NCBI GenBank assembly: GCA_963971535.1
Contig: OZ020589.1
Coordinates: 89,650,683 to 89,714,682 of the forward strand
Length of the DNA stretch: 64,000 nucleotides
Reading direction: 5' to 3'
DNA from: Notolepis coatsorum
Lineage: Eukaryota > Chordata > Actinopteri > Aulopiformes > Paralepididae
Under the pieces are notes generated by a model, which saw only the letters and a list, made by a program, of their open reading frames with translations, searched no databases and was not told the origin of the DNA. This document shows positions 3,038 to 64,000 of this stretch, piece after piece. Each line of letters begins with the position of its first letter. The first letter of the stretch is position 1. Made by a program: the position numbers and the translations under genes.

Positions 3038-4238
3038 CAGGGTTCGAAATTAACGGGGGCTTGGGGCAAAATGCCCTCGAAAATTGACCAAATGCCCTCG
3101 AACATCAGTTAAGGGGGGCAAAAAAAGCCCCCGACAGTTTACTAATTATATATATAATTATATATATGCTCTACAGTGCGAGCATTTCCCTCGTATTGCC
3201 CCTAATAATATGTGTGTGTGCAAACCGGAAAAATCATTTACTTGCAGTGTGCGAGACAGACGAGTGATTGTGAAGATTACAAAACAGCTCCGCTGTTAAT
3301 AGTTCAGATTGAAACTGGACTGAAATTCAGTTTTTGGGTGGAATGTTTGTTCCAAGGAGGAGGGAGGCGGGGCCCGCTGCGTGTTACAGGCACTTGAGAG
3401 GATGCGAACACAGAGAGAGCGCTCTGCTCTCATCAAGCATTACACTGCTATCTTAACGTTAGCAAGCTAAGCATCTGCATAGCGCGACCTGTGTTCTGTG
3501 TAACGTTAAGTAACTTGTGTTCGGCGGGGAAAGACCATTCCATTTGTAACACAACTCCAAAAGAATAACATCCAAATCCGATCCCGATGCGCATTTCCTT
3601 CATTCCACAGCGCTGAGCGCGCAACGTATTTCATTGTGTGGGGTTTTTCATCAATTTGAAACAAGCTTCTTGACTGTTGGAATTAGGGATGTTAAAAATA
3701 AAATATCTAATAATATTATTCAATATTAGACATTCATTGATCCAGAGGCAACCGGTTATTATATCAAGACAACAACACAACTTGCCCTCACTCAGGGACA
3801 ATAATATTTAATCTATTTAGATAGAGTATGTATGTATTATTTACAGATAATTGAAGGTACCTCAAAACATGAAACCAAGCCATGATGTCACACATCGTGT
3901 GTGTGTGTGTGTGTTACTTGAACAATTGTCACTGTGCTCCTAAATTTCTGTGTGCTCCTAAATTTGTATTTAGATTTTATTTATTAACATTTTATTTAGG
4001 AGCACATGTGCTCCTTGGGAAAAAGGTTAGCGTAGAGCCCTATATATGGAGACATTAACATTACGTTATCAAACATAGGGACGAAGACTGTAAAAAAAGT
4101 GTCAACAATGTTTTATAATCTTTATGTTAATTTTCATTATAAAAATGTTGTGCCCCCGAAATACAAAAAAAAGCCCCCGAAAAGCAATTAAGGGGGGCAA
4201 AAAAAGCCCTTTAATTTTTTTTTTAATTTCTAACCCTG
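3038..4238. mobile_element. hAT-type element in the LINE, 8-bp target duplication
   Basis: The ends cagggttcgaaattaa and ttaatttctaaccctg are near-perfect inverted repeats. The flanking 8-mer gggtcata occurs at 3030-3037 and 4239-4246. Both ends carry gggggcaaaaaaagcc-type subterminal words. The element at 37197-40608 has the same termini. No transposase coding region was recognised inside. Confidence 0.85.
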
Positions 4239-4356
4239 GGGTCATACATACCTCCAGAGTATCGGGTCCCCCCAGGGCTGCGTTCTGAGCCCCCTGCTGT
4301 ATTCACTGTACACACATGACTGTGTGGCCAGGTTCAGCTCCAACTCCATAGTGAAG

Positions 4357-4469
4357 TTTGCGGACGACACAGTGGTGGTGGGGCTGATCTCTAACAATGA
4401 CGAGAAGGCCTATCGGGAGGAGGTTGATGAACTGGCACGCTGGTGCCAGGATAACAGCCTACTCCTAAA
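4357..4469 (+). pseudogene. LINE reverse transcriptase, catalytic FADD piece
   Basis: This piece of the LINE ORF2 reads KFADDTVVVGLISNNDEKA and then RWCQDNSLLLN. The two aspartates at 4363-4368 are the catalytic pair of motif C. Translation resumes at 7431 with IGKTKELIVDFRR after the hAT-type element. The reading frame across this junction is good once the element and one duplication copy are removed, so the insertion came after the LINE. Confidence 0.8.
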
Positions 4470-4738
4470 TAGGGATGGGAATTGATAGGATTTTATCGAT
4501 ACGATTCCATTATCGATTCTGCTTATCGATTCGATTCTTTATCGATTCCCTTATCGATACCTGATCAATTTATAATTTAAATAAATAAATTGGAAATGCA
4601 ACAGAACTACATTTAGTCATTTAGCTGACGCTTTTATCCAAAGCGACTTACAAGTTCTGTACGACAAGCCATCAGGAAGGGCACAACTCTATCAGCTGAG
4701 CAACAATGTTCATCAAAGTGTTGAGTGCTACAGTGTAG

Positions 4739-6338
4739 CAGGGCTCCAGACTAACTTTTTTCACCACCGTCCCAGAACCGTCCCGAAATACAATTTTAAC
4801 CGTCCCAAAGTGAATGTAACCGTCCCAAAAATCAAATGTAGTTTCTTTACTTTGGTTTTGTCGTCTATAGTTGTTATTGCCATAAGAAACACCATTCAGA
4901 GAAGGGGAGAATAAATTGATTTAGTCAAAAGGCTCCCATGGTGGAAAGATTTCACAAGAATAATTATGATTAAAAATAAATGTAAAAAAAAAGTGTTTAA
5001 CAAGGTGCTAGTATAGAGATATTTGGTCACGGTGCTGTTATAGTCAACCAATTGGAGCCATCTTGATTATTCCTTCCATAGGAAAATATATTTAAATGTA
5101 TTTGTATTTTATTTCGTTTTAGTTTTTTTTGTTATTACAAATGTGTGTTTATGGTTGAAAATGTTAGAGATAAATAAAGATCAAATCAAATCTAACTGAA
5201 TAAGTTATCCCTCTTCTAACCAGAAAGAAAAACGTAGTTTAGCTTTAAACTATATAATGTCATTGCGTCCAGAGATTCCACCTTTGATAACTAAAGTAAT
5301 GACACTTGACTAGTAATGAAACATGTCCCTTAGATCGCGCTGTCCTCCTGAGTCCTGGTCGATATTGATAACTGCTGCAAAATTCCAGCGGGCCCTCCTC
5401 ACTGAATATGGATTCATTGTGTAGCTGCAGAGTGAAGTTTGCCTATAGCCTGTCGTCTATTTCTCCGCGTTCGTTTAGATAAATGTAACGTTATGCCAAT
5501 TAACTCGCAATGGTAGTAACATTACGTGTTAGTATAGAATCGAATAGAAATCCTTTAATAATCAGTGGCAGTCTGCACGTTAGTCAGTAACGTTAGCATA
5601 GCAATAAGCAGCTATAACTAGAACGCGTCGATAACTGTATACAGTTCCAATAGACTAACATTACACTTCTGTGATTTAAATGTGTCCTCACCTTAGACTC
5701 AGGGGTTGTATTGCTGGATGCAGTTCCCTGTTGGTCATTTTGGGTCTGTGTTTATCCTCTTCAAATAGCGCAGCATGTTTGCGGTGCTCTCGTCACCGAG
5801 AGGATGCCACAGTATAGCGCGCGTTTTTTTTTTTATATATAACATTCTGATCTTTCCGCGGTTCTTGTACAGTGGTCTCGTGCCGTGCGACTGTCAATTA
5901 CCAGCTGTCATTCACTGTCAACCAGGGTTAAATACCAGTGGAGAAAGCCTAGGTAAGAGAGATTTCCCTCACCTGTTAACACGTTTTTCTTTTTTGATGC
6001 GAGATTCATTTGGGGTGTGACGCTGCTGCAGCGCGAGTGGCTGAGGAGAGGTGGGTAGGAGTTTGATGCTGGATTAGTGTATCGCTGCGTTGGGAGGCGG
6101 AGATAGTCATTGGATTTGGCAAATCACGCTACGTTTAGACTTCAGTGAACTTAGTCAGCACGAGACATTCACCATTTGACAGCAATATATGCGCGCACTG
6201 ACAGTCGGCCAATTGACATTTCATGTGAAAAAAAAAATCCTCTCCGTCCCGGTTGCGTCCCAGCAAAGATTTCTGTTCGTCCCAAATCAATATTTGATCG
6301 TCCCCGGGACGACGGGACATCGTTAGTCTCGAGCCCTG
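4739..6338. mobile_element. hAT-type element nested in 4470-7422
   Basis: The ends are cagggctccagactaac and gttagtctcgagccctg, and the 8-mer cagtgtag flanks it at 4731-4738 and 6339-6346. Subterminal cgtcccaaa and cgtcccgggac words are typical of its two halves. An 87-bp relative with the same start lies at 19425-19511. Short frames inside are not similar to any transposase I know. Confidence 0.85.
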
Positions 6339-55319: not shown

Positions 55320-55334
55320 TCATTACATGTATAT

Positions 55335-56313
55335 TAGGGATGCACCGATATGAAAATTTGCCACCGATACCGATAGCTTGACAATCGGACGATACCGATA
55401 CCGATTCCGATATTTGTGGCAACACTTTTTTTTTTTTTTGTAATATTTTATTTTTGTAATATATATATATATATATTTTTTTTAATGAAACTACTGTATA
55501 TTTGTGTTACAAATTGTGCTCACCGATATGAACATAGGCCTCTTTACTTAAAAAAAGGAAACATCAAGAAATATCTCTCTCTCAGTATGTTCTGCAGGGC
55601 TGCAGCTAGATACTAGTTCTCCCAGCATGGTCTACCTGCTGGGCTGCAGCTAGATACTATTGTCTCAACCAATGAAATTTTGATTGACAGTCAATTCTGC
55701 CAATTACGTCACACACCGCTTGCACCCGCCTCTGCTGTTACCACCAATCGGCAAGCGTGTATACATTTTTTACTTCGGCTTTTGTCCGCCATTGATTTTG
55801 AGTTGACGAGAGCTTTTCTAACAACAACAACAATGGCGGCGCGGCTGACGTTTAGCTCCGCAGGATGACTTAAATGAGGCATAATGATTTTACTGCAACT
55901 AATGTTATAATAAAACAAAGCCTTTCTATACATGTGTCTGATTGAAAACGTTATTAACAGATTGCAGAATGGGTAAAACTCAGGGCTCTGTGAGCAACGG
56001 AAGGAACTGAGCTAGTATGAACGCTTGCTACGTTCGGGTAAATAATATGCTGATGTTATTGAACGTGTAACACTAACTATATAACGTTAATGCCACAAAA
56101 CGAATGCCTTGTTAATCATAAGTAGTAACTTTGATGCAGTAGCTTGTGTGTGTGTGTGTGTGTGGGGGGGAACTTTTTTTCGTCTTGATGCTACACAAAT
56201 TGATGGATATTTATCGGCTACTGCCATCTGCACATTCGAGCTTATCGGCCGATAGGCCGATTGCAGTCAACAAGGCACTTATCGGCCGATACCGATACAT
56301 CGGTGCACCCCTA
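55335..56313 (+). mobile_element. hAT-type element, about 980 bp
   Basis: It starts tagggatgcaccgatatgaa and ends atacatcggtgcaccccta. The flanks atgtatat (55327-55334) and atgtacat (56314-56321) match at seven of eight. Interior words gaccaatgaaatttt… and gcagaatgggtaaaactc appear also at 540-1015 and 11412-11880. The frames here are not shared by the other copies, so they are not treated as genes. Confidence 0.8.
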
Positions 56314-56635
56314 ATGTACATACATTCATACCAATTATTCGCCTGTTCTATTCTCTATCCATCTATAGCAACACTATATTATCACCGACATCCTGTTGGG
56401 GGATCCATTTTGAACAGCCCTCTGAGGTTTCTCTCCTCCACGCCGCCTGTGGTGCTTTTTTCCCTATTGCTAGGTTTTAGTGAGTCGTTCCTCATCTTCA
56501 TTGGGGAAAGTCTGAGTGTTGTATATATGGAAGTCAAACATTTGTATATTTTTCCAAAATGAAAAGTATATATTATTTAGTATTGAAAGTATATTTCCAC
56601 CTACTTTTCTGAGAGTGTAATTGCGATGTATTTTT

Positions 56636-56822: not shown

Positions 56823-57698
56823 CACTTTCTCTGCCAGAGACGCCTAAACTCGTCATTCCCCGCCATGCTAATTCTGCCAATGATGCCGTAACACGTCATT
56901 GAGATCAATATTTCAAAAATCTGTGATCGCAATCATATTTCTCCCCCGGAGACTTGAGATCTACTGTTGATCCCCTCTCAACTCTCCAACGGTTCAAGAG
57001 CGCCATCTGGTGGCCGATCTGCGGATTACCCAAACCGGAAACGGAAGCTGGTGCTCATTCCAATTCGGTCCGATCACTCGCTAATAGTCCCGGGACTCGA
57101 GCTAGACACAATGGATAGCAATCCGTTACCAATAACTCGATAAACAACATGATTTGGACGTATTTATTATACAACCTGGAGATGGATCGCATATTTCAAC
57201 ATCCCATAATAGGAATATTTTTGCTCCACGCTCATCGCCCAACGCGACGAGGAAGCTACGGTGAGTTTCAGCGTTTTTTTTTTACCGTGTTCGATATAAA
57301 CTGCTCTAATGATCATATCACCCACACTAGATGAATCATCTAACGTTGGCCACGGAATTATAAACGACCCCCCCCCCATCCGGTCAACATCAGATGATAA
57401 GTAGTAACTTCCATTTGATTTTTTTTATCTTGCGCAGATCGCTATCAAACTGTATTTGATCATCAATATAATGCATTTAGGGCTATAAATCACGTTCTGG
57501 AGAAAGCTGCAGAAAACGATAAAAACATATTTATACTTTAGACCGTATTTTAGTATGAATATGTGAAAGAAAAAGTATAACGTTCCTACGTCCTGAACGA
57601 TAGATAATTGACGTTGAATGGGCCATAGTAATGTCAATTTAGCAATACAATTTAAAAAGTTATAGCCCTGCAAAGAAGGGGAACTTCTCCATAGACAA
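56823..57698 (+). mobile_element. piggyBac-like TTAA element (subfamily 2), 3' end lost
   Basis: TTAA at 56819-56822 precedes cactttctctgccagagacg. The copy follows 31064-31984, including MIWTYLLYNLEMDR at 57149 and tacggtgagtttcagcg at 57257. It breaks off after ttctccatagaca near 57698, before the expected right end. Confidence 0.75.
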
Positions 57699-59225
57699 TT
57701 TCTTACCTTAAAAAAAACATTAAAATTCATAAAAAGATTACATGTATCTCTAATACCTTCCCCATATAGACTAGGCAGAATTTCAGAAAATGTGCTTGTA
57801 TAAAGTGCTGAAGGCATTTCGTGTTTATTTTAGGTACACACCATTTCTAGGAGTATTAAGGGGTGCTGAATCCAAATCTGCTGTATACCAAGCTCAAAAA
57901 TGTCAAACAAGGCCTGAAAATTGAGAAATCCAACATGGCCGCCAGCACCAGGCCCTCTCTCCACAAAAACAGGTGCTAAACCCACATTTCTTATTCTACT
58001 GACATGAAACTTTGCACAGAACATCTGCACCTATGGAGGAAGAAGGTAGGAATATAGCTGTGGTGCAACCATGAGAGTAACAGGGTGTTTTTGACTGTCT
58101 AACTGTAATCTTTGTATAGGCGAGGATACAAAAATGACATTTCTTCAGTGTTTGCAGGAATACTGCAGCAATTTGGTAATAACTATACAGTGTGGGACAC
58201 CAGCATTGGAATCCCCCAAGTCTTAGCTTTCTTCAGGTACCAAGTTTATGCAAGTAGCTCTTATAAATCTGGATATATAAGCATTTTAATGTAAGCATGC
58301 TGTTTTAGGCGAATTTTCAAAAAATAAATGGTGGGGCTTAGTTAAGTGTGACTACACAAGGTACAAACCTGAATTAAATGTGCTTTTGTAAGTTTTCTTA
58401 CATGGGGGATCCGATGCCATATTCAGATTTATATCTCATTATGATATAGATAGTGAAAAAATAATTGTAACTATGAATAATTTCTCAGCTATTGTTATTA
58501 TTTCCAAAAGAATTTGGCAGATGTGCTGTGATGGAACCTTTGCATCCCCACTATCAACCCCTGCCCCCTTCTCCATCCACATGTCCCTCCCAACATGCAC
58601 TTCACCTTCACCTCTCAAAGAATGGCTGCTCTGCTATGGGACAGATAACAGCTGTTACCTAGGTAAAGTCATGGCTATTGTTTTGATGTGATAATTTGAC
58701 ATTTTATGTTAAGTGATTGTAGTGTCTGATGTGTAAATAATTGTAGCTTTTTATCATATTTAGATCTCAGAAAGAAGCCTAGCCTTACACTTCTCACAGA
58801 AGAGGCTGAGGCTGGCTGACTTTACCTGTTAGCTGCTAACATTAGTCAGCAAGTTTTTAGCTGGGATTAGCTAGTCACTAGCTAATGTTACTGTGATCTC
58901 ACAAGGCCAGTAAGGCTGTCCCCGAACCCTGTTTTTGGGATTCGAACTTCGTCAGGGTTTTTCAAACAAATGTTTGAACCTTCGTTTCTAATAATAATAA
59001 AAAAAAAAATAAAGGAAAAAAACATTTAATTTTTTTTTTTTTTTTTTAATATGTTCGGACGTTCGAACATTCGGGCTCAGCCTTAGAGGCCAGACTACGA
59101 CAGGCTAACGTTTCTGTCTTAATGAGCAAGCTAAATCAATACATATGTCTTACAGTTTGCATTCTTATCCTAAGATTGTTCAAATCTTCTTATAGGTTTG
59201 AATTAGTCAATTGGTGACTGAAACC
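57699..59225. other. Upstream region of the Academ-like gene
   Basis: No second gene was recognised. The sequence is low in known repeats, apart from a polypurine/T run at 58998-59050. A possible 5' exon or promoter would be here. An acceptor-like ttcttatag lies at about 59187-59195 just before the frame. The left boundary of the element may coincide with the break at 57698, but no inverted repeat was found. Confidence 0.4.
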
Positions 59226-62200
59226 ATGGCTGAAGCGACAGAAAGTGTAGTGTCAATGGAGCTGCAGTTGTGCATCATCTGTCAGAAAGACAAAAAGCAA
59301 AAGCTCATGGAAGTTAGTAAGGATGGCCTCCAGTCAGCAAACACTATCAGAGAACTCCGGTCAAAATTACATAATGACAATTTTCTAGATGCACCTAGTC
59401 GACTTACAGAGATATTTCAAGGAGACTTGCCTCACCATTTCTTATGGCATAGGGATTGCCGAGCGCCATACATGGATAAAGGTAAAATTGAAAGGTTGAA
59501 GGCTGGATCGAAGAAAATTGCCAAAGAAATGCCATGTGCATCCACAGCAACTATGCAAAATGTTAGGCTACGCAGCAAAATCCCTCCAATGGATTGGAAG
59601 CAATGTATCTTTTGCCAAGAAGTTCGTAAAGAAGCACTACATGACATACAAGATTTGAGAGTCAGTAGCAGAATACTACAAGCAGCAAAGTATGACTCAT
59701 TCTTAATAGTGCGACTAGCTTGTGTAAATGATCTTACTGCTGCAGAAGGGAGCTATCACCAGACTTGCAAGACCAAGTTCGAACGTAGGACCAAACGCCT
59801 GGAAGAAATGTCACTAACGAGCACAGACATGCCATTGGAGTGGCTTTGCCAAGAACTTGAACAATCAGCAAAGCAAGAGGATATTCTGGATCTTGTACAT
59901 GTGTGGGACCGGTACTATACACTCGCTAATGAGGCTCAACTGGATATACCATCTAGATTTCTGAGCAGAAGGAACACATTCAAGGAACAAATAGCTGATC
60001 GTCTTGAGGGCATATACGACTTTGTTGTACTGCATGATCAGCCCCGAAATGAACCTCGTACTGTCTTGGTTCCATCCAAATACCGGCATATTCCAGTATC
60101 AGCAATGGTGAAAAACGACTCTGCAGACATTGAGAGAGTCATTCCTACATTCCAACATGAGGATCAAGATATGTTCCTAAACATGGTGCATGTAGCATTG
60201 CAGATCCGAAGGGACATGCTCTCTCATCCCAAACAAGAAGGGATAGACATCAGTGAAAACAGAGCAATAGACAGCATACCCAACAGCCTTTACATGTTCC
60301 TCAACTTGTTACTAGGTGGTCAGCACCTTCTGGAGGATGACAATATTGATGATGATAAGAACACAGCCAAACGACAGCTTAGAGTCCGCAGCATTGCACA
60401 GGATCTTATGTACACAGCCAGTGGAGACAAGTTCCTCACTCCGAAGCACATAGGACTGGCCAGTACCCTTCATCAAGCCACACGTTCGAAAGAGTTGGTA
60501 AACATGTTTCACCAGGCAGGTCATGTTATGAGTTACCGTGAGGTACTCAAACTTGATACTGCATTGGCTAAGAAGACCTTGGAGACCATGGATGATGACG
60601 GTGCTGTTGTTCCACTAAATCTAGTAAGGGGGCACTTTGTTCATTTCTCAACAGACAATGTCGACATCAACGAGTACACTCTGGATGGAAAAGGGACATT
60701 CCATGCCACTCAAGTGGCTGCCTGGCAACGTGGTTCTCCTGTAGGTGATCTCCTGGAAGGGATTTATCTTCATTCCAAGTCAGAAACCCTCAACATTCCC
60801 CAGGCAATGACTGATATCATACCTGCACCAAAAAGAGGAATCACAGAGCGCCCATTCAGTGGTGTAATAGCAGCAGACTGTTTCACACAGTCATCTGAGC
60901 AATGTCCCGCAGCACAGAAAGCACAAGGTACTGATATGGCTTTCCACATGTCCAGGACATCTCAGAAACCAATGCCTTCCTGGACATTGTTCAATGAAAA
61001 GGCAAGCACAGTCAACCCAGAGAAAACTACAGTAGGGTACCTACCTATCATCCAGGCTCCTGCATCGGAACTCGATACACTGAACACAGTCGTCAAGCGA
61101 GTGCTCCATGTCGCCAAATCAATGGAACAACAACATGTCATTCTCACAGTGGACGAGGCACTTTATCCGAAGTTATTGGAACTGAAGTGGTCAGTAGAAG
61201 AATACAAGGATGTGCTTATCCCTTGCCTCGGAGGCCTTCACATTTCCATGAACTTCCTGGGTGTGATCGGACAACACATGGCTGATTCTGGCCTGAGCGA
61301 GCTATGGGTCAAGTGTGATCTTCTGGGAGCAAATGCTGCTCAGCATGTCATGGCAGGAAAGGGGTATGCACGTGCCATGAGGACCCACAAACTTACCCTG
61401 CAGGCTCTTTGGCAGCTACTACTCCCACGGCTTTATGCATATCTGGATGGAGTTGATGTCACCCTGAGAGCTGAGCTCACAGATCTCTGCCAATCAACAG
61501 TTGCTGATGACATCGCACAGATGGTCGACTTACTTTCTACAGACAGATTCCAGCAGCCCATGAAGGAGTTTGCTGCATTGCTTGTAGTTGATGACCCGAA
61601 CGCTGCATTCTGGTGGGACTACATGACTATGGTCAGCATCCTACTCTACTTTACACGAGCACAACGTGATGGATTGTGGGATCTCCACCTGTATGCTTTC
61701 AAACGTATGCTGCCCTTCTTCTTCAGGTACAATCATATCAACTACGCCCGGTGGGGTACTGTGTACCTGGCTGAGATGTCTGCTCTCCCACCAGAAATCC
61801 TCCTCGAGTTTCAGAGAGGCAACTTCGTTGTAAAACGCAGTGATCGACACTTCAATCAGGTTTCAGCGGATCAAAGTACAGAGTGGCTCAATGCTACAGG
61901 AAAAAAGAGTGGAGGCTTGGTAGGAATCACCAGAATAGAAACATCCCTCAGGAGATGGAGACTGTCATATAATCTGAGAACAGTCATAGCTTCTCAGACA
62001 ACAACAATGCTGAGACTGACAACAGACGAAGAAGACGATGTGTACACACACACCGAGTGCACAAAGAGTAGAATGGAGAGAGACGACACTGATGAAAGCA
62101 GACTCTGTGTGTCATTGAAAGAGCACGGAGTGTTTCAAGATGGGGGTGACACACTGAGAAACATAATCAACAAGGACGTAGTCACACCGGAGATTCAAGA

Positions 62201-63758
62201 ATCCCTACTTGGCGCAGAACACCTTGGACAGGCACAACTGAACATGTTTGTGGACAAACGTTTGTGTGAACCTCCAGATAGTGACCAGCACCTGAACCTG
62301 AAATCACCCATTCGAAAGAACAAAGCCAAGACATTTGCCTCTTTGTATGAAGTTGTGCAACTTTCTAAGAACAAGCAAAACACCATCAAAGTGGACAGGC
62401 AGATTCTACAAAGGCTCATCACAGCTTACAGAGCAGGTCGTAAGGTAGACCTTGACAATATTCTCCAGCATGAGCTCATGCCCATCCCGCCATCTCTGGC
62501 CACAACTAATGGGAGTCTACATTCCACCAACAAGTCTGTGTTAGCAAATATACTGACGAAACAAGTTAAAATCCCTGCAGATCTTACCCTTCAGGGACCC
62601 AGCTGCCTGGTCATTGATGGCCAAGCTCTGGTAATGGCACTCGGAAAGCCACCTGACACTACAACATTTGGTGACTATGCCAACAAGTTCACTGACACCG
62701 TGTTGAAGATGGGAGCAAAATACCAGAGGGTAGATGTCGTCTTTGACAGATACCATGACCAATCCATCAAAACAGGCACAAGGGTGAAACGCAAACAGCG
62801 CCACAGACCAGTACGTCGTGAAATCAAAAACAAGTCTGTTCCACTTCCTGCCGATTGGTCGAGCTTCATGGCCCTTGAAGACAACAAATCAGATCTCGCT
62901 CAACTACTCTCAAACCACCTGATAGAACACAGCCCGGATGATGAACCTGTAGTTGTAGTATCAGGGGGGTTTGCTGAAGCGACAACCGTCAAGTCAACAG
63001 ATCCAGATCTTGAAGTCTCCTCTCTGAGTGCTGACCATGAGGAAGCTGATACACAACTGATTTTACACTGCATCCAGGCTCCAATGGAAACAATCGTCGT
63101 GTCAGCGCGTGACACAGATGTGCTGCTTCTACTCTTGGCTCACTATGACAGGATCCGATGTACGCATCTCTACATGAAAGCTGGGACATCAAAGGATCCA
63201 AAATATTTTCCAGTACATGACATTAGAAAGCTACTATCTGATGATCAACTGGACACAATCCTTGCCTTCCATGCCCTCACCGGATGTGACAGTGTGTCCC
63301 AGTTCAGTGGTCATGGAAAGAAAACAGCCTGGCAGGTGTTCGAGCACCATCACACTGATCTTGCTGGCCTTGGGATGGGCCCTTTCACAGAAGATCTTGT
63401 GACATCAACAGAGAGATTCATCTGCAAGATCTATGGTGTGCCTGAGGTGGATACGTGCAACAAAGCAAGAGTCAAGTTATTCTGCAAAGGCCGTCCACAA
63501 GAGACTCTGCCACCAACCTCGGATGCAGTGAAGTTCCACATCATGCGCTCACACTATCAAGCAAGCATCTGGAACCAAGCTCACCTGCCACACCCTGATC
63601 TTCCTCCTGTTGATGAAATGGGGTGGATACACAAGGAAGGACAGCTAGTGCCACAGCTACTCTTTCTGCCACCCATGCCTAAAGCCTGCAGGGAGTTCAC
63701 TTCATGTGGGTGTACCAAGGAGTGCCTCAGCCAACGCTGCAGCTGCAGGTATGTATGA
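59226..63758 (+). CDS. Academ-like transposase with zinc fingers and XPG/FEN-like nuclease
   Basis: The frame is open for about 1,510 codons from an ATG in good Kozak context (gaaaccATGGct). Two C2HC-like fingers come first: CIIC with HRDC (residues about 16-78) and CIFC with HQTC (127-181). The core has FSTDNVDINEYTLDGKGT (D477, D480), ILTVDEA (D643), LGGLHISMNFLGVIGQHM (about 668-685) and NHINYARWG, then SADQSTEWLN (E886). The C-terminal part shows LVIDGQALVM (1128-1137), HEEADTQLILH (1271-1281), SARDTDVLLLLL (1293-1304) and ALTGCDSVSQFSGHGKKTA (1350-1368), the acidic boxes and helix-hairpin-helix-like turn of FEN1/XPG nucleases. The last residues, CGCTKECLSQRCSC, start a cysteine-rich tail. 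At 63749 a gtatgt donor precedes the stop, so the real end is likely in a further exon. Zinc finger, DDE/D core and XPG nuclease are known together in the XPG-bearing lineage of Academ transposons; this assignment is from domain order, not a search. Confidence 0.7.
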   Translation: MAEATESVVSMELQLCIICQKDKKQKLMEVSKDGLQSANTIRELRSKLHNDNFLDAPSRLTEIFQGDLPHHFLWHRDCRAPYMDKGKIERLKAGSKKIAKEMPCASTATMQNVRLRSKIPPMDWKQCIFCQEVRKEALHDIQDLRVSSRILQAAKYDSFLIVRLACVNDLTAAEGSYHQTCKTKFERRTKRLEEMSLTSTDMPLEWLCQELEQSAKQEDILDLVHVWDRYYTLANEAQLDIPSRFLSRRNTFKEQIADRLEGIYDFVVLHDQPRNEPRTVLVPSKYRHIPVSAMVKNDSADIERVIPTFQHEDQDMFLNMVHVALQIRRDMLSHPKQEGIDISENRAIDSIPNSLYMFLNLLLGGQHLLEDDNIDDDKNTAKRQLRVRSIAQDLMYTASGDKFLTPKHIGLASTLHQATRSKELVNMFHQAGHVMSYREVLKLDTALAKKTLETMDDDGAVVPLNLVRGHFVHFSTDNVDINEYTLDGKGTFHATQVAAWQRGSPVGDLLEGIYLHSKSETLNIPQAMTDIIPAPKRGITERPFSGVIAADCFTQSSEQCPAAQKAQGTDMAFHMSRTSQKPMPSWTLFNEKASTVNPEKTTVGYLPIIQAPASELDTLNTVVKRVLHVAKSMEQQHVILTVDEALYPKLLELKWSVEEYKDVLIPCLGGLHISMNFLGVIGQHMADSGLSELWVKCDLLGANAAQHVMAGKGYARAMRTHKLTLQALWQLLLPRLYAYLDGVDVTLRAELTDLCQSTVADDIAQMVDLLSTDRFQQPMKEFAALLVVDDPNAAFWWDYMTMVSILLYFTRAQRDGLWDLHLYAFKRMLPFFFRYNHINYARWGTVYLAEMSALPPEILLEFQRGNFVVKRSDRHFNQVSADQSTEWLNATGKKSGGLVGITRIETSLRRWRLSYNLRTVIASQTTTMLRLTTDEEDDVYTHTECTKSRMERDDTDESRLCVSLKEHGVFQDGGDTLRNIINKDVVTPEIQESLLGAEHLGQAQLNMFVDKRLCEPPDSDQHLNLKSPIRKNKAKTFASLYEVVQLSKNKQNTIKVDRQILQRLITAYRAGRKVDLDNILQHELMPIPPSLATTNGSLHSTNKSVLANILTKQVKIPADLTLQGPSCLVIDGQALVMALGKPPDTTTFGDYANKFTDTVLKMGAKYQRVDVVFDRYHDQSIKTGTRVKRKQRHRPVRREIKNKSVPLPADWSSFMALEDNKSDLAQLLSNHLIEHSPDDEPVVVVSGGFAEATTVKSTDPDLEVSSLSADHEEADTQLILHCIQAPMETIVVSARDTDVLLLLLAHYDRIRCTHLYMKAGTSKDPKYFPVHDIRKLLSDDQLDTILAFHALTGCDSVSQFSGHGKKTAWQVFEHHHTDLAGLGMGPFTEDLVTSTERFICKIYGVPEVDTCNKARVKLFCKGRPQETLPPTSDAVKFHIMRSHYQASIWNQAHLPHPDLPPVDEMGWIHKEGQLVPQLLFLPPMPKACREFTSCGCTKECLSQRCSCRYV

Positions 63759-64000
63759 AGGATTAGCTGATAGTGATCAATGTTATTAGATTGTAAAACT
63801 ATGATGTGGTAGAGCATATCCACCTGCAAGACTGTATACTCTAGACTGTAACAGAATTGTGAACATATGCCTATAACAGAGAGAAAAAAAGGAATGAAGG
63901 AACAGAATAAATCACTGTAAGGACAATTGTATCATGTGTTCGAATATACTTGTACGAGAGATGGCTATAATCTTTCAATTCTCTTCTACTCTATTCTATT
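63749..64000 (+). other. Probable intron of the Academ-like gene
   Basis: The donor cag|gtatgt at 63746-63754 is followed by A/T-rich sequence with no further frame. The next coding exon, with the rest of the cysteine-rich tail, is expected outside the window. Confidence 0.5.

Follow-up and report, generated by a model that had tools for sequence, protein, structure and literature searches.

A candidate AcademX-type transposase gene with a putative FEN/XPG-like nuclease in Notolepis coatsorum

Among Academ elements, one description (PMC10045372) distinguishes AcademX, a lineage that bears a nuclease and makes target duplications of 3 or 4 bp, from AcademH, which bears a helicase and makes duplications of 9–10 bp. 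A second source (PMC4746887) lists Academ elements for zebrafish, medaka and stickleback. Here, we analyze a 64,000-nt stretch of the Notolepis coatsorum genome (assembly GCA_963971535.1, contig OZ020589.1, positions 89,650,683 to 89,714,682 of the forward strand), hereafter the window, in which an uninterrupted 4.5-kb frame encodes what appears to be a DDE transposase joined to a FEN/XPG-like nuclease. In our reading, to which we assign a probability of about 0.75, an AcademX-type cut-and-paste transposon that was active recently carries this frame as the chief exon of its transposase gene, and the protein has two nucleases. On the narrower point of its identity and architecture as an AcademX-type transposon gene, we have little doubt.

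The element resembles AcademX in its putative DDE transposase, its 3-bp duplications and its predicted nuclease, which in AcademX we take to be of the XPG type, and nothing decisive sets it apart. A Tesmin-like CXC tail, 634-bp subterminal inverted repeats and near-identical intact copies go beyond the AcademX description that we used. By comparison with published descriptions, the element would be, to our knowledge, a new family within a known lineage. Its transposase core is probably also related to that of AcademH, as the Pfam domain DUF6589 matches both the window protein and a helicase-bearing stretch elsewhere in the genome; however, AcademH carries a helicase and makes 9–10 bp duplications, whereas the window element has a nuclease, no helicase and 3-bp duplications.

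An earlier reading made from the window's sequence only (the sequence-only reading) had proposed an Academ-like transposon with an XPG nuclease, and the 3-bp duplications together with the nuclease agree with AcademX as described. That reading had also presented the element as little described. We found no paper in the open-licence literature joining Academ with XPG and, in the same literature (the main AcademH paper not included), none establishing a role for the nuclease in AcademX transposition; a nuclease-bearing AcademX is, however, already named in print (PMC10045372). With this kind of element known, the interest of the window copy is as material for testing what the second nuclease is for. 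In the source genome, the frame of the window copy is unbroken, its relatives are very young, its ends are defined and both putative active sites can be mutated, so the question is directly testable.

Ends, insertion site and recent movement

Alignment of copies fixed the transposon at positions 57767–65331 (7565 bp, + strand), of which 57767..64000 lie in the window and the remaining 3′ part beyond it. The termini read TAGACTAGG.../...CCCTGTCTA; the 25-bp 5′ terminal inverted repeat (57767..57791) is identical to the 3′ end at 19 of 25 bases. The left target-site duplication, ATA, is at 57764..57766, with its right copy at 65332–65334, beyond the window. Of 17 loci examined, 11 show both ends of the copy, and a 3-bp duplication flanks every one of these, one of them being compatible with 4 bp too. 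Six of these copies are full-size (7.5–7.6 kb) and five are internally rearranged (3.4–5.6 kb). A search for further copies with shared ends and 3–4 bp duplications had been suggested, and copies are abundant: the 3.42-Gb assembly that we searched contains 361 exact matches to the 26-bp 5′ terminus (control, 0), and DNA matches to the element numbered 462 candidates, of which 40 were scored.

When the two flanks of the window copy were joined across a single ATA, all 40 places that were scored, out of 235 candidates, matched at 99–100% identity over bases 46–233. The junction, after base 115, falls within the matched stretch, so these places are uninterrupted insertion sites. Shared ends, 3-bp duplications and uninterrupted sites together identify a mobile element, and because uninterrupted copies of the joined flanks remain in the genome, we conclude that it jumped into an interspersed repeat. 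This second repeat (57697–57766, and from 65335 onward) has at least 40 near-identical copies among the 235 candidates.

We took 20 stretches of 10 kb around copies for comparison, the window copy being L009. Only two of them, the window copy and L010, retain the full-length unbroken frame, and these differ at 7 of 6531 sites (0.11%), from which it follows that the element moved recently. The frame of L016 is open and lacks 29 residues, with D477 of the transposase core among those missing. In a second young subfamily (L011–L015), the members are 0.06–0.3% apart and all have lost the same 7 bp near codon 99, between the two fingers. As this subfamily multiplied although it carries the deletion, it probably did so in one of two ways, via protein from intact copies or via translation from a later start.

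Searches of the same genome gave four families besides that of the window (family 1). A search for DUF6589 (9 matches) led to family 2 (L030) and to the decayed family 3 (L032), and a search with the family 3 protein (135 matches) led to family 4 (L033/L036) and family 5 (L034/L035). All four are ~20–45% identical to the window protein. By tblastn, the window protein had no match in two other stretches, L029 and L031, which stand outside the family counts. Scans of viral contigs and genome contigs returned no relatives outside the source genome.

The transposase gene and its putative nuclease

From stop to stop the frame spans 59202..63758 on the + strand (1518 aa), or 1510 aa from the ATG at 59226, which lies in good Kozak context (aaaccATGg). 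The sequence-only reading had described an uninterrupted gene at 59226..63758 with five parts in order, namely two C2HC fingers, a DDE core, a FEN-like nuclease and a cysteine-rich tail cut by a splice donor. The frame and all five parts are present, the functions of the parts being predicted. What changes is the extent: the last 10 bases (63749–63758) are better read as intron, and the element as a whole is 57767–65331. Exon 1 would thus be 59226..63748 (codons 1–1507 plus two bases). A 255-bp intron (63749–64003, with 63749..64000 inside the window) would join the expected donor, 63748/63749, to an acceptor at 64003/64004, just past the window end, and exon 2 at 64004–64085, also beyond the window, would complete a spliced protein of 1534 aa. 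We infer this splice because the sites fit the consensus and because three other families (L032, L033 and L034) have tails in which the same CxC...CxC motif shows no interruption at the splice point. A decayed second exon-2 segment with its own acceptor-like site, recognized by eye, follows the true exon 2 at ~64147–64252 (L009 6830–6935).

The first predicted finger, C16-C19-H75-C78, is encoded at 59271..59459 (+), and the second, C127-C130-H178-C181, at 59604..59768 (+); the latter is present in four of the four families examined (family 3 being left out). At the other end, 63705..63748 (+) encodes the first half of a Tesmin/TSO1-like CXC tail that exon 2 would complete. The spliced tail covers nearly the whole Pfam TCR (Tesmin/TSO1 CXC) model at E 0.037, under the cut-off. 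The corresponding tails gave E 0.022 in L033, E 0.72 in L032 and no match in L034.

Conserved residues and the DUF6589 match place the putative DDE core at approximately residues 440–960 (60543..62105, +). D477 (codon 60654–60656), D643 (61152–61154), H672 and E886 (61881–61883) are retained in the families that cover them, the family 3 piece spanning E886 only. H837 is not conserved, being K in families 4 and 5. DUF6589 matches residues 593–890 of the window protein at E 3.8e-5, below the Pfam cut-off, and scores just above the cut-off in family 2; no helicase appeared in the Pfam scan of the window protein. Elsewhere in the genome, L029 (G000:C7:101758000-101766000; − strand 3758–4999, + strand 101–721) carries DUF6589 (E 3.8e-29) and, on the opposite strand, a DEAD-box helicase, which suggests an AcademH-like stretch in which the two are candidate parts of one element. 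Because DUF6589 covers the D643–E886 half of the core here and adjoins a helicase in L029, this domain, listed as being of unknown function, is probably the Academ transposase core. We found no paper in the open-licence literature linking DUF6589 with a transposon.

The FEN/XPG-like nuclease is predicted at approximately residues 1125–1400 (62598..63425, +) from motif order, invariant residues and profile comparison. Its landmarks are D1131, D1174, K1182, R1189, E1273, D1275, D1296, D1298, D1355 and a GxGK motif. Across the five families, nine of the 39 acidic residues in the nuclease segment are invariant where present (D1131, D1170, D1174, E1272, E1273, D1275, D1296, D1298 and D1355), with D1131 and D1355 each resting on four families and the family 2 row at D1355 being a misplaced end. 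The catalytic residues of FEN1 are D34, D86, E158, E160, D179, D181 and D233, and the invariant set contains order-matched counterparts of all of them. For GEN1, one paper gives the acidic set D30, E75, E134, E136, D155, D157 and D208 (PMC5039027).

Other features of the segment point in the same direction. K1182 and R1189 are seven apart; FEN1 and the host GEN1 exon each have a K and an R at this spacing after their second acidic residue. The GxGK after D1355 parallels the GxGPK after D233 in FEN1. A FEN spacing template fits the invariant residues, and none of 200,000 random placements matches it. When residues 1240–1400 of the families were compared by hhalign with FEN1 plus the host XPG and GEN1 exons, the score was 21.2 (E 0.009). 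None of 150 column shuffles reached this value (best, 19.0), and the register is as expected, with DTD pairing with D179/D181 and GCD with D233. The domain thus appears similar to FEN1, XPG, EXO1 and GEN1 in having seven acidic residues in the same order at comparable distances, in K-x6-R and in GxG after the last acidic residue. It differs from them in being fused to a transposase and in having a sequence too distant for the HMM (hidden Markov model) searches that we ran.

Several results weigh against this assignment. The spacing template was written post hoc, and 2 of 20,000 shuffles of the segment's letters match it. The hhalign probabilities are low, at 0.6% (E 0.09) when the family alignment is compared with only human FEN1 and 4.5% with the three-sequence template. 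Pfam and PDB-sequence searches with the protein and three profiles do not recognize the nuclease, and no XPG_N or XPG_I profile match occurs within it. Genome-wide, XPG_I finds 6 places, none among the places listed for the element. Given the low hhalign probabilities, we consider it very likely, and stop short of certainty, that the nuclease belongs to FEN/XPG. The earlier assignment to this type therefore stands on motif order, invariant residues and profile comparison, while the HMM searches by which it was to be checked find nothing. An Amphiphysin match in the PDB-sequence search was attributed to chance, and prokaryotic FEN1 relatives, sought in genome contigs as comparators, were not found there.

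Conservation across families

The nuclease is located after the transposase in each of the four further families, and the two share one readable frame in families 1, 4 and 5, where the junction can be read. The fetched family 2 copy stops inside the nuclease, before the last motif and the tail. At the positions that each family covers, the putative nuclease active site is kept in all five. Identity to the window protein in the core and the nuclease, respectively, is 40.6% and 44.9% for family 3 (from only 175 core positions), 28.1% and 28.5% for family 4, 28.8% and 28.3–30.0% for family 5, and 20.0% and 26.5% for family 2. On the whole, then, the nuclease appears to be kept about as tightly as the transposase relative to the window family. 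Between families, the proportion of synonymous differences (pS) is about 0.73–0.85 in both domains, which is saturated, and that of nonsynonymous differences (pN) is 0.31–0.59, which is unsaturated. Because the nuclease is as conserved as the transposase at 20–45% identity, we argue that it matters for the element.

Two observations run counter to this argument. Between families 4 and 5, the nuclease (45.5–49.2% identity) has diverged more than the core (56.7%), and for this reason we call it likely, and no more than that, that the nuclease is needed for the spread of the element. Within the window family, young copies give no clear selection signal: the ratio of nonsynonymous to synonymous substitution rates (dN/dS) is 0.90–1.24 in 10 of the 12 comparisons with a value, mostly as expected of copies drifting after insertion. 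The partial copies L020 and L028 gave 0.34 and 0.49. The length of the frame had been taken to suggest recent activity or selection; the comparison with L010 bears out the former, but the latter finds no clear within-family support.

Possible roles of the nuclease

In Tn7, the DDE enzyme TnsB and a second nuclease, TnsA, act on different strands. A similar division of labor is possible in the window element, but within a single polypeptide; TnsA, a separate protein, is a nuclease of the restriction type, and we claim no homology to it. The N-terminal fingers and the CXC tail would bind DNA, and the DDE core would generate the transferred-strand 3′-OH ends and join them to target positions staggered by 3 bp. 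On the opposite strand, the FEN-like domain would either cut at the 5′ end or, once strand transfer has occurred, trim a flap, and this 5′-end processing would let the joint be sealed. We give about even odds that the nuclease acts at the 5′ strands of the element by cutting or trimming. A direct role gains indirect support because the duplication length of Academ lineages is described as differing with the accessory enzyme (PMC10045372). A fuller scheme can be drawn, in which the DDE site cuts and joins the transferred strand, the FEN-like site cuts the opposite strand for hairpin-free excision, and the accessory enzyme sets the duplication length. We offer this scheme tentatively and think it rather doubtful; if true, such a one-polypeptide, two-nuclease transposase would be a eukaryotic counterpart of TnsA/TnsB.

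The window family also has long subterminal inverted repeats of ~634 bp. The 5′ arm (57808..58437, +) is 98% identical to the 3′ arm (64668–65299), and the arms start 41 and 32 bp inside the element ends. Across six full-size copies, there are 4–6 differences between the arms within a copy and 1–5 (5′ arms) or 0–7 (3′ arms) between copies, so divergence within a copy is about equal to that between copies. In the five copies other than the window copy, four columns distinguish 5′ from 3′ arms. One variant private to the window copy is present on both of its arms, a hint of arm-to-arm exchange or conversion.

These repeats bear on one alternative, in which the nuclease stands outside the cutting reaction and resolves branched DNA, such as cruciforms of the 634-bp repeats or replication intermediates, as GEN1 does with Holliday junctions. 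The great length of the repeats would suit such a role, as would the private variant with its hint of arm exchange and the K1182/R1189 spacing shared with the host GEN1 exon. However, five rearranged copies (L022, L023, L024, L026 and L028) retain most of the 5′ arm and only ~140 bp of the 3′ arm and still have 3-bp duplications; full arms are therefore not needed, and full-length repeats are excluded as a required substrate. Nor were long inverted repeats seen in the 7-kb stretches of families 4 and 5 (L033–L036, two copies each, ends undefined). We regard this alternative as improbable. FEN and PIN folds serve many roles, and the nuclease could instead be a passenger or a regulator, for example degrading host or rival nucleic acid, and be dispensable for transposition. 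A weak PIN_4 score in one family (L033, E 0.12) and the greater divergence of the nuclease between families 4 and 5 would be in keeping with this. Against it stand the same-frame fusion in families 1, 4 and 5, the putative active site kept in five families, conservation matching that of the transposase relative to the window family, and the variation of duplication length with accessory enzyme noted above, and we judge a passenger to be about as improbable as a resolvase.

The remaining alternatives concern what the element is. Academ membership was judged from descriptions, and Kolobok lineages likewise carry accessory nucleases (PMC9587614), so a different DDE superfamily (e.g., Kolobok or a KDZ type) might have gained a FEN-like nuclease separately. 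We consider this quite unlikely, as the 3-bp duplications and the nuclease fit AcademX as described (PMC10045372) and the core matches DUF6589, which in the source genome adjoins a DEAD helicase, as expected of AcademH. A domesticated host gene could account for a frame unbroken over 4.5 kb, and such a gene would lack transposon ends and occur once, at a fixed locus. The window element has hundreds of exact termini and 3-bp duplications, its insertion site persists uninterrupted elsewhere, and near-identical copies of it lie between unrelated flanking sequences. This refutes domestication for the window copy and leaves this explanation with a negligible chance. An AcademX-type transposon with a two-nuclease protein remains our preferred reading.

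Two further observations concern sequence in and around the element. The rearranged copies L022–L026 and L028 are derivatives with one common join (L009 1086 to 4844) in which ~1.6 to 3.4 kb has no match listed against the full-size element; five of them are two-ended, and L023 measures 3442 bp. Upstream of the transposon, an inverted 23-bp pair (55327–55349 and 56299–56321), ~950 bp apart, resembles the ends of a small non-autonomous DNA transposon.

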